Shown piece by piece: positions 22,413 to 63,737 of a DNA stretch of 64,000 bases. The notes beneath the pieces were generated by a model. It ran no database searches. It saw only the letters and a list, made by a program, of their open reading frames with translations, and was not told the DNA's origin. Position 1 is the stretch's first letter, and every line of letters begins with the position of its first letter. Source of the DNA: an uncultured Lactobacillaceae bacterium (lineage in GTDB: Bacteria; Bacillota; Bacilli; Lactobacillales; Lactobacillaceae); contig CALYPJ010000003.1 in assembly GCA_945273735.1 (NCBI GenBank), positions 1-64,000 on the forward strand. The letters are read 5' to 3'. The position numbers were made by a program, and so were the translations under genes.

Positions 22413-23132
22413 TTAAATTGTTCGCTTTATTTCAATGCTTTTAACGTTATCTATCATCATTCGTTGTTTTAGAGCGGTGATAATTTTAATACCTGAACTA
22501 GTTCCAATACGATCGGCGCCTGCTGCAATCATCGCTAAAAAGTCGTCACTATTTCGAATACCACCAGCTGCTTTAACCTTCACAGTGTCACCGACTGTTT
22601 GTTTCATCAATTTAACGTCAGCAATTTTGGCACCGCTAGGTCCAAATCCAGTAGATGTTTTAATAAAGTCTGGTTTTATTTCTTTTGCTATTTGGGCTAA
22701 TTTTTTTATTTCATCGTTGTTTAAATATGTATTTTCAAAAATAACTTTAGCTATAACATGATGATCATGGCAAATTTTAACAATTTTTGCCATTTCTTCT
22801 TTAATGTAATTATAGTTATGATTTTTAACTTCAGTTAAATTAACAACATAATCGATTTCGTTGGCGCCATTAGTAATTGCATCTTTAGTTTCAAATTCTT
22901 TAGATGCAATGCTAGTTTGACCTAAAGGAAAACTTATTGCTGCTCCTACATGGACGTTACTATCTTTTAATTCTTTAGCACAGAGGGCTGATTGAACTTG
23001 GTTAATTGCAACCATTTTAAAATGATATTTTTTAGCTTCAGAACACAGCTTTTTGATATCAGTAGCCGAAGCATTAGCATGAAGATTGGTATGATCGATC
23101 ATTTGAGCAAAATCATCTAAACTGTATTTCAT
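22413..23132 (-). CDS. deoC: Deoxyribose-phosphate aldolase (copy 1)
   Basis: [52 protein letters not shown]. Confidence 0.94.
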
Positions 23133-27727: not shown

Positions 27728-27855
27728 TAAATAGTAATTAAAAAAGCCTAATATTTTCTATTTTTTAAAAAAAGTATAAAGTAAAAAAGTTGTTGACTTT
27801 TAACTTGTATATAGATTACATTATATACATTCAGTCAGTCAGGAGCGTTTGAAAA

Positions 27856-27933
27856 ATGAGCAATATGCAACTTAGACAATTGAATAATTATTTGTACTTT
27901 CGTTTATACTTTTTGAAAAAGTTCAACCGGTAG
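27856..27933 (+). CDS. Leader peptide MSNMQLRQLNNYLYFRLYFLKKFNR
   Basis: 25-codon ORF with SD aggag; 3 Tyr and 4 Phe; shares QLNN with two other leaders. Confidence 0.7.
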   Translation: MSNMQLRQLNNYLYFRLYFLKKFNR

Positions 27934-28004
27934 GAATGAAAGTTTATTTTGAACGATAAATCTAATCCTAACGGTTCAAAAGTCTGTTAGGAATAATACG
28001 ATTA

Positions 28005-28042
28005 AAAACCTAGCAGATTAAATTTTAACTGTTAGGTTTTTT
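28005..28042 (+). terminator. Attenuator terminator upstream of the 2-hydroxyacid dehydrogenase
   Basis: aaaacctagcag ... ctgttaggtttttt. Confidence 0.8.
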
Positions 28043-28112
28043 GGTAATTTAATTAAGAAGTTATTATATAATCACTGAAATTAGCATTAATTTAAATAGG
28101 AGGAATAGATAA

Positions 28113-29102
28113 ATGAAATTTATTTTAACAAGTGTTCGAGATGATGAAATTCCGCCAATTAAAGAATGGGAAAAAAGGCATCAGGGAATGCAAATAGATT
28201 CAGTAAAATGGGAACTTAATATGGATACAATTAATCTGGTAAAAGATTATGATGGTATAGCTATTCAGCAACGAGGCCCAATCGATGATCGGGTTTACCC
28301 CAAATTGAAAGAATTTGGTTTTAAACAATTAACCACTAGAACTGCAGGTTTTGATAATTTTAATTTAGCCTTAGCTAAAGAAAATGGATTGAAAGTAACT
28401 AATGTTCCTGCTTATTCTCCCCGTTCGGTTGCTGAGTTAGCTTTGACACATACGATGCGTTTAATTCGGAAATTACCCCAGTTCGATGAACGAATGGCAC
28501 AACAGGATTTTCGATGGGAAGGTTTACAAGCTACTGAAATTCATTCCTTAACGGTTGGAATCATAGGTGCAGGCCGTATTGGCGGAACTAGCGCTCAACT
28601 TTTTCACGCTTTAGGAGCAAAAGTAATTGCTTATGATACTAAACCTAATCATGATTTAGATAATATTTTAACTTTTAAATCTAAATCTGAGGTATTAAGA
28701 GAGTCTGATGTAATTTGTTTGCATGTTGATTTGAACGAAACATCTAAAAATCTTATTGATGCTGCTGCTTTTAATCAGATGAAATCGACTGCCTACTTGA
28801 TTAATGAATGTCGTGGCCCAGTTGTTGATACAGATGCGTTAATTAATGCTTTGAATCAAAAACAAATTGCTGGAGCAGCTTTGGATACTTTAACTGGTGA
28901 AGAAAATTTTTTTAATGTCGACTTGCGTGGCAAAGAAATTCCAAGTGAGCAACTTAAGCAATTACGGGCAATGACTAATGTAATTTTGACTCCACATATT
29001 GGCTTTTATACTAATATTGCAGTTCAAAATATGGTGGATATTTCATTGGATGACGTTTTGAGTATCGTTGAAGGTAAAATTAGTGACCATATTGTTAACT
29101 AA
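28113..29102 (+). CDS. D-2-hydroxyacid dehydrogenase (D-LDH / D-HicDH-like)
   Basis: GIIGAGRIGGTSAQLFHALGAKVIAYD; NECRGPVVDTDAL; LTPHIGFYT. Confidence 0.93.
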   Translation: MKFILTSVRDDEIPPIKEWEKRHQGMQIDSVKWELNMDTINLVKDYDGIAIQQRGPIDDRVYPKLKEFGFKQLTTRTAGFDNFNLALAKENGLKVTNVPAYSPRSVAELALTHTMRLIRKLPQFDERMAQQDFRWEGLQATEIHSLTVGIIGAGRIGGTSAQLFHALGAKVIAYDTKPNHDLDNILTFKSKSEVLRESDVICLHVDLNETSKNLIDAAAFNQMKSTAYLINECRGPVVDTDALINALNQKQIAGAALDTLTGEENFFNVDLRGKEIPSEQLKQLRAMTNVILTPHIGFYTNIAVQNMVDISLDDVLSIVEGKISDHIVN

Positions 29103-29170: not shown

Positions 29171-29342
29171 TGATTAAATTTATTTGTTAAAAGTTTTAGT
29201 TGATAAAAATTTCTTTACATTGAGCTTAAGTTATGATTATTTTAAAGTGGAAGAGATTTAGTAAAAGGTAAATTGCTTTTATGAGATTATTTTAGAATCT
29301 TTTTATTTATAAATATAATAAAGTTAACGAAAGGTTTTGATC

Positions 29343-30008
29343 ATGGAATTAACCAAAGAACAATTAGCTAAGTATTTAGATCATACTAATTTACAACCTA
29401 ATGCTACGGCTGCCCAAATTAAGCAAACTTGTGCCGAAGCTCTTAAATATCAAACTGCTTCAGTTTGTGTCAATGCACATTGGGTTGATTTAGTTACAAA
29501 AGAATTAACAGGTAGTGGCGTTAATCCGATTGCAGTTGTTGGATTTCCTTTGGGAGCAACAACTACGGAAATTAAAGTCGCTGAGGCCAAGCAAGCGATG
29601 ATAGATGGTGCAATGGAAATCGATATGGTAATTAATATAGGTGAGTTCTTGGGGGGTAATTTTGATTTTGTAAAATCAGATATTACAAAAGTTGCTGAAG
29701 TCGTTCACCAAGAATCAAAATTATTGAAAGTAATTATTGAAACATCTTATTTAAATAATGATCAAATTGTCAAAGCTTGTCAGATTTGTGAAGTTGCTCA
29801 TGCAGATTATGTAAAAACCTCTACTGGTTTTAGTGATTCTGGAGCTAAGGTAGAGGATGTAGTTTTAATGCGTAAAACTGTAGGTAATCGGTTAGGAGTT
29901 AAAGCCTCAGGTGGTATTCACACTCAAGAGGAGGCGATAGCGATGATTAAAGCGGGAGCAAGCAGATTAGGTGTTAGTGCGACTGTGAAAATTTTAGAAG
30001 GTAAGTAG
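29343..30008 (+). CDS. deoC: Deoxyribose-phosphate aldolase (copy 2)
   Basis: LDHTNLQPNATAAQIKQTC, YVKTSTGFSDSGAKVEDVVLMRKTVG, VKASGGIHT. Confidence 0.95.
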   Translation: MELTKEQLAKYLDHTNLQPNATAAQIKQTCAEALKYQTASVCVNAHWVDLVTKELTGSGVNPIAVVGFPLGATTTEIKVAEAKQAMIDGAMEIDMVINIGEFLGGNFDFVKSDITKVAEVVHQESKLLKVIIETSYLNNDQIVKACQICEVAHADYVKTSTGFSDSGAKVEDVVLMRKTVGNRLGVKASGGIHTQEEAIAMIKAGASRLGVSATVKILEGK

Positions 30009-61071: not shown

Positions 61072-61137
61072 ATGTTTAAGAATTTAAAACGAAGCTTACA
61101 ACTGAATAACCGTTATTACTATAGCTATTTTAGATAA
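61072..61137 (+). CDS. Leader peptide MFKNLKRSLQLNNRYYYSYFR
   Basis: 21-codon ORF with SD ggagg; Tyr/Phe cluster before the stop. Confidence 0.75.
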   Translation: MFKNLKRSLQLNNRYYYSYFR

Positions 61138-61280
61138 GTTTGAATTCATCAAGATGAATTCAAACGGAATTCAAGTTTGAATTTGTCTATGATGGCTTTA
61201 GTGTTTTGTTTTACGGTTAGCCACATAGTTTCTAAGTGGTTAGTCGTAATTAATAAATTTCTGAAATTAATTTTGAGGTA

Positions 61281-61307
61281 CCCACTTAGAAATAAGTGGG
61301 TTTTTTT
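61281..61307 (+). terminator. Attenuator terminator 2
   Basis: cccacttagaaataagtgggttttttt. Confidence 0.9.
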
Positions 61308-61342: not shown

Positions 61343-62311
61343 ATGAAATTTAAAAAATTAATTACAGGAATTAGTTTGTTGGGGTTATTAATGATGGGAG
61401 GTTGTAGTGCTAAAAAAACTAGTAACGAATCTCAAGTAAAACATATTGGTGTTCTTCAAGTTGTCCAACATCCCTCACTGGATAAAGCTTACCGAGGTTT
61501 TAAAAAGGGACTTAAAAAAAGTGGTTATGTTGAAGGGAAAAACTTAAAAATAGATTATCAAAACGCACAAAATAGCCAAGATAATTTAAAAAGTATGAGT
61601 GAAAAATTAGTCAATGATAAGCCAGATTTAATTTTGGGAATTGCTACTCCGGCTGCACAAAGTGTAGCTAATGCTACTCAAAATATTCCGATTGTTGTCA
61701 CAGCAGTAACAGACCTAAAAGCAGCAAAATTGGTTGATTCTAATGAAAAACCTGGTCGTAATGTTACTGGTAATACTGATATGGCTTCAATTAAACAACA
61801 AATTGAATTACTTTTATCAATTGTTCCAAAAGCTAAAAAAATTGGGATTATGTATAATGCAGGAGAAGTTAATTCGAAGGTTCAGGCAGATTTAGCTATT
61901 AAGGAATTGAAAAAAGCTGGTATTACACCGGTGATTAAAACAGCTAATACAACTAATGACGTTCAGCAAGTTACTGAAGCGTTAGCGGGGAAAGTTCAAG
62001 GCATTTTTCTCCCAACGGATAATACTTTTGACTCTGCCGCTTCAGTCGTCGGTAAAGTGGTTAAAGAAAAGAAGATTCCTTTAGTTGCGGGATCAGTAGA
62101 TCAAGTTAAGGTCGGTGGTTTAGCTTCAATTGGGGTAGACTTTGAATTACTTGGTGAAGAAAGTGGAGAGATGGCGGCAAAGATTTTATCTGGTAAAGCT
62201 AAACCAGCAAATATGCCAGTTCAAAAGCCACATAAAGTTAAGTTAGTAGTCAATAAAGATATGGCAAAAGCCTTAGGCATTGACCCAAATTCTATTAAAG
62301 CACCTAAATAA
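61343..62311 (+). CDS. ABC transporter substrate-binding lipoprotein (TrpX-like, ABC_sub_bind family), copy 1
   Basis: Lipobox LLMMGGCSAKK; HIGVLQVVQHPSLDKAYRGFKKGLKKSGYVEGKNLKIDYQNAQ. Confidence 0.93.
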   Translation: MKFKKLITGISLLGLLMMGGCSAKKTSNESQVKHIGVLQVVQHPSLDKAYRGFKKGLKKSGYVEGKNLKIDYQNAQNSQDNLKSMSEKLVNDKPDLILGIATPAAQSVANATQNIPIVVTAVTDLKAAKLVDSNEKPGRNVTGNTDMASIKQQIELLLSIVPKAKKIGIMYNAGEVNSKVQADLAIKELKKAGITPVIKTANTTNDVQQVTEALAGKVQGIFLPTDNTFDSAASVVGKVVKEKKIPLVAGSVDQVKVGGLASIGVDFELLGEESGEMAAKILSGKAKPANMPVQKPHKVKLVVNKDMAKALGIDPNSIKAPK

Positions 62312-62434
62312 ACAAATTCGGCTAGAGTTTGGTTAAAGGAGATTAGTATCAGTTAATAAATTTTTTAAGCAGTTACTTGAATGTGAAATTAAATAAGTTG
62401 AAATGTAACTGAAAATTATTTTATGTTATTATTC

Positions 62435-62730
62435 TTGACTTTGCTTTTTTGATATTTTATAATTTTTACATAAAAGTTGGAGGTAGTTTTTAATGCTTAA
62501 GAGTTTAAAGATAGTCTTACAACTGAATAATCGTTTTTACTTTAGCTATTTTAGATAATGTTTGAATTCATCTAGATGAATTCAAACGAAACTCTGGTTT
62601 GAATTTATCTATGATGGCTAAAGAATTTTAGATTACGATTGGCCACATAGTTTCTAAGTGGCTAATCGCAATTAATCATTTACAATAATTAATCTTGAGA
62701 TACTCACTTAGAAATAGGTGGGTGTCTTTT
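62435..62730 (+). promoter_or_regulatory. Attenuator leader 3 (paralogue of leader 2)
   Basis: TTGACT-N17-TATAAT; same segment order; terminator ACTCACTTAgaaaTAGGTGGGT plus T tract. Confidence 0.8.
62493..62558 (+). CDS. Leader peptide MLKSLKIVLQLNNRFYFSYFR
   Basis: 21-codon ORF with SD ggagg; aromatic cluster; paralogous to 61072-61137. Confidence 0.75.
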   Translation: MLKSLKIVLQLNNRFYFSYFR

Positions 62731-62768
62731 TTTATATCATTTAGTACAAAAATGAAAGGATTAAGGAA

Positions 62769-63737
62769 ATGAAAATAAAAAGGTTAATTGCAGGAATTAG
62801 TTTAGTTAGTTTATTAATGGCAGGAGGATGTAGTAGTAAAAAAACTAGCAAGGAAACTCAAGTAAAGCATGTTGGTGTTCTTCAAGTCGTCCAACATCCA
62901 TCGTTAGATAAAGCTTATAAAGGATTTAAAAAAGGACTTAAAGATGGTGGTTATACTGAAGGAAAAAATTTAAAAATAGATTATCAAAACGCGCAAAACA
63001 GTCAAGACAATTTAAAAAGTATGAGTGAAAAATTAGTCAATGATAAATCAGATTTGCTTTTGGGAATTGCTACTCCGGCAGCTCAGAGTTTGGCTAATTC
63101 TACTAAAGATATTCCAATTGTAGTAACAGCAGTAACTGATTTAAAAGCGGCTAAATTGGTTAAATCAAATGATAATCCTGGTGGAAATATTACTGGAACT
63201 ACAGATATGGTTTCAATTGATCAACAAATTGCACTTCTTTTATCTATTGTGCCTAACGCTAAATCAATTGGAATAATGTATAACGCCGGAGAAGCTAATT
63301 CTAAGATCCAAGCCGATTTTGCGATTACAGCTTTGAAAAAAGCTGGAGTTAAAGCAGTAGTTAAAACCGCAAATACTACTAATGATGTTCAGCAAGTTAC
63401 TGAAACATTAGCTAGATCAACGCAAGGAATATATGTACCTACTGATAATACCTTCGCTTCTGCATCTGCAATAGTTGGTAAAGTAGTTAAGGAAAAGAAA
63501 ATCCCTCTAGTTGCAGGTTCAACTGATCAAATTAAAAATGGCGGACTAGCTACCATAGGTATTGATTACGAATCTTTGGGAAAACAAACTGGAAAAATGG
63601 CGGCAAAGATTTTATCTGGTAAAGCTAAACCAAAAGAAATGGCAGTTCAAAAAGCTGATAACTTAAAACTAGTAGTTAATAAAGAAATGGCTAAAGCTAT
63701 AGGGATTGATCCAAGTACAATTAAGGAACCTAAATAA
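62769..63737 (+). CDS. ABC transporter substrate-binding lipoprotein (TrpX-like), copy 2
   Basis: Lipobox LLMAGGCSSKK; near-identical HVGVLQVVQHPSLDKAYKGFKKGLKDGGYTEGKNLKIDYQNAQNSQDNLKSMSEKLVNDK. Confidence 0.93.
   Translation: MKIKRLIAGISLVSLLMAGGCSSKKTSKETQVKHVGVLQVVQHPSLDKAYKGFKKGLKDGGYTEGKNLKIDYQNAQNSQDNLKSMSEKLVNDKSDLLLGIATPAAQSLANSTKDIPIVVTAVTDLKAAKLVKSNDNPGGNITGTTDMVSIDQQIALLLSIVPNAKSIGIMYNAGEANSKIQADFAITALKKAGVKAVVKTANTTNDVQQVTETLARSTQGIYVPTDNTFASASAIVGKVVKEKKIPLVAGSTDQIKNGGLATIGIDYESLGKQTGKMAAKILSGKAKPKEMAVQKADNLKLVVNKEMAKAIGIDPSTIKEPK

Follow-up and report, generated by a model that had tools for sequence, protein, structure and literature searches.

An aromatic leader-peptide attenuator family proposed to control aromatic amino-acid genes in Lactobacillales

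Leader-peptide attenuators of the trp, his and pheA type are known in amino-acid operons of Proteobacteria and Actinobacteria (PMC1262725), and T-boxes are the usual regulators of such genes in Firmicutes. Aromatic regulation in low-GC Gram-positives was reportedly treated by Panina et al. in 2003, a study that PMC2494555 cites and that may bear on the novelty of the family described here. Attenuation by a leader peptide is also described for histidine in bacilli (PMC2965389) and for a leucine-rich leader of Staphylococcus aureus (PMC5794164). A literature search, in which only open-licence papers were searchable, found no published description of an aromatic leader attenuator family. Here we analyse a leader in a 64,000-nucleotide stretch of DNA from an uncultured Lactobacillaceae bacterium (contig CALYPJ010000003.1, hereafter the window), and propose that it is a ribosome-mediated transcription attenuator of a Lactobacillales-wide family controlling aromatic amino-acid genes, which would sense the charging of Tyr and Phe (sometimes Trp) tRNA and be off by default. 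We consider this model very likely to be correct.

The leader occupies positions 27793–28044, and its features all lie on the forward strand. A candidate promoter (TTGACT-18 nt-TACATT, 27793–27822) matches the consensus at 9 of 12 positions and keeps its place in an alignment of four genomes, although the scan finds candidates in this region no more often than in shuffled sequence and is weak evidence alone; transcription would be expected to start at about 27829. A Shine-Dalgarno sequence AGGAG (27841–27845), of which GGAG is invariant in the four genomes, precedes a leader ORF (27856–27933) that encodes the 25-residue peptide MSNMQLRQLNNYLYFRLYFLKKFNR with its aromatic codons, and whose stop codon lies within segment 1 (AACCGGTAGGA, 27925–27935; identified by partner tests, masked folding and helix energies). 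Partner tests and helix energies likewise identify segment 2 (TCCTAACGGTT, 27966–27976), which can pair with segment 1 or 3, and segment 3 (TCTGTTAGGA, 27983–27992), which can pair with segment 2, favouring termination, or with segment 4 as an antiterminator. The intrinsic terminator (28005–28042) has segment 4 (28009–28017) as its 5' arm and segment 5 as its 3' arm, followed by a T-run. The original prediction had placed the ORF, segment 1 (as 27927–27935), segment 2 (as 27966–27974), segments 3 and 4 and the terminator correctly base for base, with the stop codon in segment 1 as the sequence bears out, and the segments it named stand; its count of five does not, as it overlooked S0 (ACTTTCGTTT, 27896–27905), which lies inside the ORF, and S0' (GAATGAAAGT, 27934–27943), which adjoins and partly overlaps segment 1. 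These two pair with each other in the minimum free energy (MFE) structure of the leader, and both are supported by covariation and, for S0, by a leader-shuffle control.

The controlled gene (28113–29102) encodes a D-2-hydroxyacid (D-lactate-type) dehydrogenase by NCBIfam and Pfam, with 4xkj as its nearest solved relative and orthologues that follow an aminotransferase gene in other genera, and it possibly acts on aromatic 2-oxo acids. A spacer of 70 nt that follows the terminator in this copy could house a promoter, but a consensus scan downstream of the terminator found none for the dehydrogenase and a separate promoter there was dropped. Two deoxyribose-phosphate-aldolase-like genes, of which the second alone was checked against NCBIfam, lie within 7 kb of each other on opposite strands of the window (22413–23132, reverse; 29337–30008, forward).

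Compared with 200 dinucleotide shuffles, the terminator helix 4:5 (-15.4 kcal/mol, z -5.2), helix 2:3 (-11.2 kcal/mol, z -5.1) and helix 3:4 (-12.9 kcal/mol, z -5.8) all stand out, as does the entire leader (27828–28050; -54.4 kcal/mol, z -4.4). Helix 1:2 is weaker by this measure (-13.8 kcal/mol, z -2.55), two of the 200 shuffles being equally good. When each segment's partner is compared with shuffled upstream sequence, p is 0.010 for 1:2, 0.030 for 2:3 and 0.010 for 3:4, such that all three pairings of the original prediction are significant in the window's dehydrogenase copy. The same test over 114 loci, for which the script-made assignment of segments and terminators is imperfect, gives p <= 0.05 for 3:4 in 61%, for 2:3 in 68% and for 1:2 in 52%. 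Antiterminator and terminator are mutually exclusive, and the latter ends in a T-run, as expected of an attenuator.

We observe the anatomy of the leader family, its reading frame and gene context, its covariation and how it is predicted to fold; we infer ribosome stalling, a tRNA signal and an effect on transcription, which would operate as follows. RNA polymerase would make a leader whose ORF of about 20 codons ends in Tyr/Phe, sometimes Trp, codons. With no ribosome present, S0 would pair with S0', 1:2 would be blocked, 2:3 would form and the terminator would fold, leaving the gene off. When charged Tyr and Phe tRNA is plentiful, the ribosome at the window's dehydrogenase copy would reach the stop codon and cover segment 1, while in most relatives it would cover a further segment, a1, and a2 would pair with a3 beside segment 1; both arrangements would be off. 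When charged tRNA is scarce, the ribosome would stall on the aromatic codons and cover S0, leaving segment 1 free; 1:2 would then form, segment 3 could pair with segment 4 and the terminator would be prevented, turning the gene on. The earlier logic, off with a ribosome at the stop codon and on with a stalled one, is retained here, and the predicted off state without a ribosome is added to it.

To model these states, we used an RNA ending after segment 2, with the ribosome represented as a mask, and counted the pairs of 1:2. Over 114 loci the mean is 7.7 for a ribosome placed at the second aromatic codon, 3.3 for one at the stop and 2.3 without a ribosome, with up to 13 of the 114 going the opposite way in the masked tests. 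In the window's dehydrogenase copy five of the Tyr/Phe codons each give a count of 8.5, the last Phe codon and the stop give 0, and the RNA without a ribosome gives 0.1; the zero at the stop is trivial because the mask covers segment 1, but the value without a ribosome is not. Stalling on the aromatic codons thus favours 1:2 and a ribosome at the stop disfavours it in the folding predictions, as had been proposed. If the leader RNA alone is shuffled, 1:2 in the absence of a ribosome rises from 2.3 to 5.5 on average and from 0.1 to 8.5 in the window's dehydrogenase copy, and the leader's own coding RNA is therefore predicted to hold the switch in its off state.

With RNA extended to segment 3, all confident loci that change do so in the predicted direction (17 to 0), the effect being small, and at equilibrium 2:3 is dominant in every ribosome state of the window's dehydrogenase copy; with RNA through segment 4, 3:4 beats 2:3 in every state of that copy. 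Because one or other helix dominates at equilibrium regardless of the ribosome, the switch would need the RNA to fold in the order in which it is transcribed, and we infer that, like classical attenuation, it relies on which helix forms first. Folding the whole leader at equilibrium, where 3:4 always wins, is uninformative as a test of the switch in this copy and was replaced by the RNA to segment 2. The position of the ribosome selects the structure in silico by masked folding, although equilibrium folding of the full leader fails to show this for the window's dehydrogenase copy.

The alternative helices are also evident from covariation, for which we used an alignment of 76 sequences fitted to the structure (A4) and an unfitted MAFFT alignment (A3). 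On A4, each of the 19 base pairs in S0:S0' and a1:a2 shows double changes, and the covariation of these helices is 0.450 as compared with 0.215 (sd 0.008) when shuffled and 0.06–0.08 when slid; on A3 the corresponding values are 0.219 and 0.180 (sd 0.012, shuffled). The alternative helix a2:a3, which is exclusive with a1:a2, covaries as well (0.275, as compared with 0.163, sd 0.009, shuffled). Within the four genomes of the window's genus, S0/S0' shows a series of G-C, G-U and A-U pairs, and in one of them, the uncultured Lactobacillaceae MAG G003, Arg is replaced by His with the pair kept. A 5' stem joining ATTCAAT to the QLN codons was rejected as a universal feature, being present in part of the family only.

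The leader lies 5' of the orthologous dehydrogenase gene in all four genomes of the genus examined, and their alignment shows an RQLN(N/S)YLYF core, S0/S0' and segments 1–5. The terminator passes directly into the Shine-Dalgarno sequence of the gene in two of them, G001 and G002, and must therefore act on that gene. Both genomes carry an additional hairpin between the leader and segment 1, with the stop codon before it, whereas the window's dehydrogenase copy and G003 are without that hairpin; a stop codon in segment 1 is therefore the compact form only. The claim that the stop codon lies in segment 1 thus holds here and in the nearest relative, G003, but in the others the stop is earlier and additional segments take over its role. 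Searching for the core with a strict DNA pattern gives matches in the window's genus only. One weak match in G003 (L006) looks like a chance AT-rich match, without leader or switch, and was set aside.

Outside the genus but within Lactobacillaceae, the nearest orthologues of the dehydrogenase gene mostly lie directly 3' of a PLP aminotransferase gene, and the same leader is found 5' of the aminotransferase in those operons, for example MLKLQIRQLNAYYYFRFFR and MKLAKQHSNNWYYNFYFFR; one record among these aminotransferase-dehydrogenase operons is Bombilactobacillus bombi. Covariance model R1 (16 leaders) has matches in 142 of 401 Lactobacillaceae genomes and 19 of 40 genera, and model R2 (76 leaders) in 260 of 398 Lactobacillales genomes and 66 of 81 genera, with the proviso that likeness among the leaders is partly selected for because some search models contain leader sequence. 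Family members are present at three places within the window. Of the genomes outside Lactobacillales in a class-wide sample, only five matched at E 1e-4; three of these, belonging to one family (L188, L189 and L191), carry the leader MLLTKQQQHNRFYFSYF 5' of an ORF that is DAHP-synthase-like as judged by eye, and the attenuator family appears to extend past Lactobacillales at least once. What had been read as a single attenuator in front of the dehydrogenase is thus upheld as an attenuator but not as a gene-specific element; the predicted family is order-wide and larger than the one copy first seen.

Judged from sequence, these leaders contain a translatable short ORF of about 20 codons, with a run of codons for Tyr/Phe (sometimes Trp) at its end. 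An ORF with a Shine-Dalgarno sequence and ATG is open in the aromatic frame at 109 of 118 loci and in the two alternative frames at 2 and 0, and aromatic codons number 5.17 per 8 in that frame versus 1.2; aromatic residues average 28% across 71 unique leaders. The aromatic-rich peptide proposed at the outset is thereby confirmed as a frame conserved across 118 loci. Ahead of the aromatic run, QLN (CARTTGAAT; 27874–27888 in the window) is kept in most leaders.

The first gene 3' of the leader is an aromatic amino-acid gene in 115 of 118 sampled matches. The first recognised gene encodes a TrpX-type substrate-binding protein at 55 loci, an aminotransferase at 34, AroE at 16, the dehydrogenase at four, a transketolase at two, an MFS protein carrying a chorismate-mutase domain at two, and AroC and a permease at one each, three being unassigned; DAHP synthase follows aroE at several loci. 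At L118 (1098–2546, reverse strand) the gene under an aromatic leader encodes an MFS protein whose C-terminal domain is of the chorismate-mutase type (Pfam MFS_1 and CM_2), and chorismate synthase follows it. The leaders are enriched in codons for the amino acid whose metabolism the downstream genes serve, and their composition differs between gene classes: Phe-only runs (FAFSFFF) precede transporters in several genera, YYYYWF precedes aroE operons, and aminotransferase leaders have all three kinds of aromatic codon. The genes under this leader family appear to form an aromatic amino-acid regulon. Leaders of TrpX-type genes have a mean of 0.0 Trp codons (51 unique leaders), and because these leaders (L091–L179) are without a Trp codon, transport of Phe/Tyr is the likelier role despite the NCBIfam name of tryptophan binder. 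Frame, aromatic gene context (115/118), covarying alternative helices and masked folding together support the ribosome-mediated attenuation originally put forward.

The same RNA switch could in principle be worked by nascent-chain arrest, in which the QLN and aromatic peptide stalls the ribosome on a free small molecule such as an aromatic amino acid, a metabolite or an antibiotic. The constancy of the QLN-type residues, with LN[NSTARGK] in 63 of 71 unique leaders and no RNA partner shown for them, and a C-terminal pattern that is alike in distant families are what this explanation would account for. However, Y, F and W interchange freely, the residues between the aromatics vary, S-Y-F-R is accounted for by S0 pairing, and the aromatic composition varies with the controlled gene, and we therefore regard arrest as unlikely. 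We are similarly doubtful of an order-wide combination in which conserved QLN-aromatic arrest, responding to a free aromatic metabolite or other ligand, is added to the codon input.

Returning to codon-directed attenuation, the window contains two more copies, both on the forward strand. The second has a leader ORF MFKNLKRSLQLNNRYYYSYFR at 61072–61137 (R1 match 61095–61214) and a switch with terminator at 61121–61307, ahead of the TrpX-type ABC transporter substrate-binding protein that it would control (61343–62311; 320 bits to NCBIfam TrpX, below the cut-off of 390; Pfam ABC_sub_bind). The third has a leader ORF MLKSLKIVLQLNNRFYFSYFR at 62493–62558 (R1 match 62516–62636) and a switch with terminator at 62542–62735, ahead of a second TrpX-type substrate-binding protein (62769–63737), with a permease gene next, from 63768. 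The tandem genes (61343–63737) each have their own attenuator, and similar pairs are present in G001 and G003 (L123 and L124).

Both switches overlap matches above gathering to the Rfam covariance model RF02863 (sRNA_2410; 61121–61285 and 62542–62708), which also matches 8 of 20 further family loci; in the Rfam search it was not above gathering at 27793–28044, and no other Rfam leader family matched family members. The model is like the family in that it overlaps S0, a1:a2 and segments 1, 2 and 3 at these two copies, and unlike it in being typed as a small RNA gene and in beginning inside the leader ORF, hence without start codon and Shine-Dalgarno sequence. RF02863, described as Enterococcus sRNA 2410, is part of the same family and is probably an attenuator. 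If the leaders were instead trans-acting small RNAs, with the terminator as the normal 3' end, these matches would be expected, as would the 195-nt sRNA_2410 of E. faecium, seen as two transcripts by RNA-seq and Northern (PMC5593968). However, the element is directly 5' of aromatic genes, and oriented as they are, at 115 of 118 loci, an antiterminator is present and the ORF is conserved; two transcripts would also fit the terminated and longer RNAs expected of an attenuator. Given this gene context and the terminators that abut the next gene's Shine-Dalgarno sequence in relatives, we reject a trans-acting RNA as highly improbable. The faintest chance of all attaches to a riboswitch or T-box-like RNA that binds a ligand or tRNA, with the ORF incidental, since for all the strong covariation and the frequency of T-boxes in related bacteria (PMC2494555) the frame is kept with its Shine-Dalgarno sequence and start, the codon content agrees with the controlled genes, and the Rfam check called for by the original prediction gave no T-box or other riboswitch match at 27793–28044 or in the relatives searched, on which ground such an identity is rejected.

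If attenuation by a translated aromatic leader is the correct explanation, a single family of ribosome-read attenuators would govern the uptake and synthesis of aromatic amino acids across much of Lactobacillales, a role in which T-boxes would be expected, and an aromatic regulon could be defined from sequence alone. It would also follow that the Rfam small RNA RF02863 is to be reread as an attenuator's terminated transcript, and that the TrpX-type transporter in this group may serve Phe/Tyr, its leaders being without a Trp codon.

T-box leaders resemble this family in controlling the same kind of genes in response to the same tRNA-charging signal in related bacteria, but differ in that the tRNA is read directly, without translation, and there is no T-box match here. 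The histidine leader of bacilli and the leucine-rich attenuator of S. aureus are alike in being leader-peptide attenuation in Firmicutes, and unlike in amino acid and genes. With the attenuators of Proteobacteria and Actinobacteria the proposed family shares a short ORF enriched for the amino acid under control, hairpins that exclude each other, an intrinsic terminator and an operon of the same pathway. It differs from them in occurring in another bacterial order, in spanning transporter, shikimate and aminotransferase operons as one family, and in having more segments together with the S0:S0' helix, in which coding RNA is predicted to hold the switch off when no ribosome is present.
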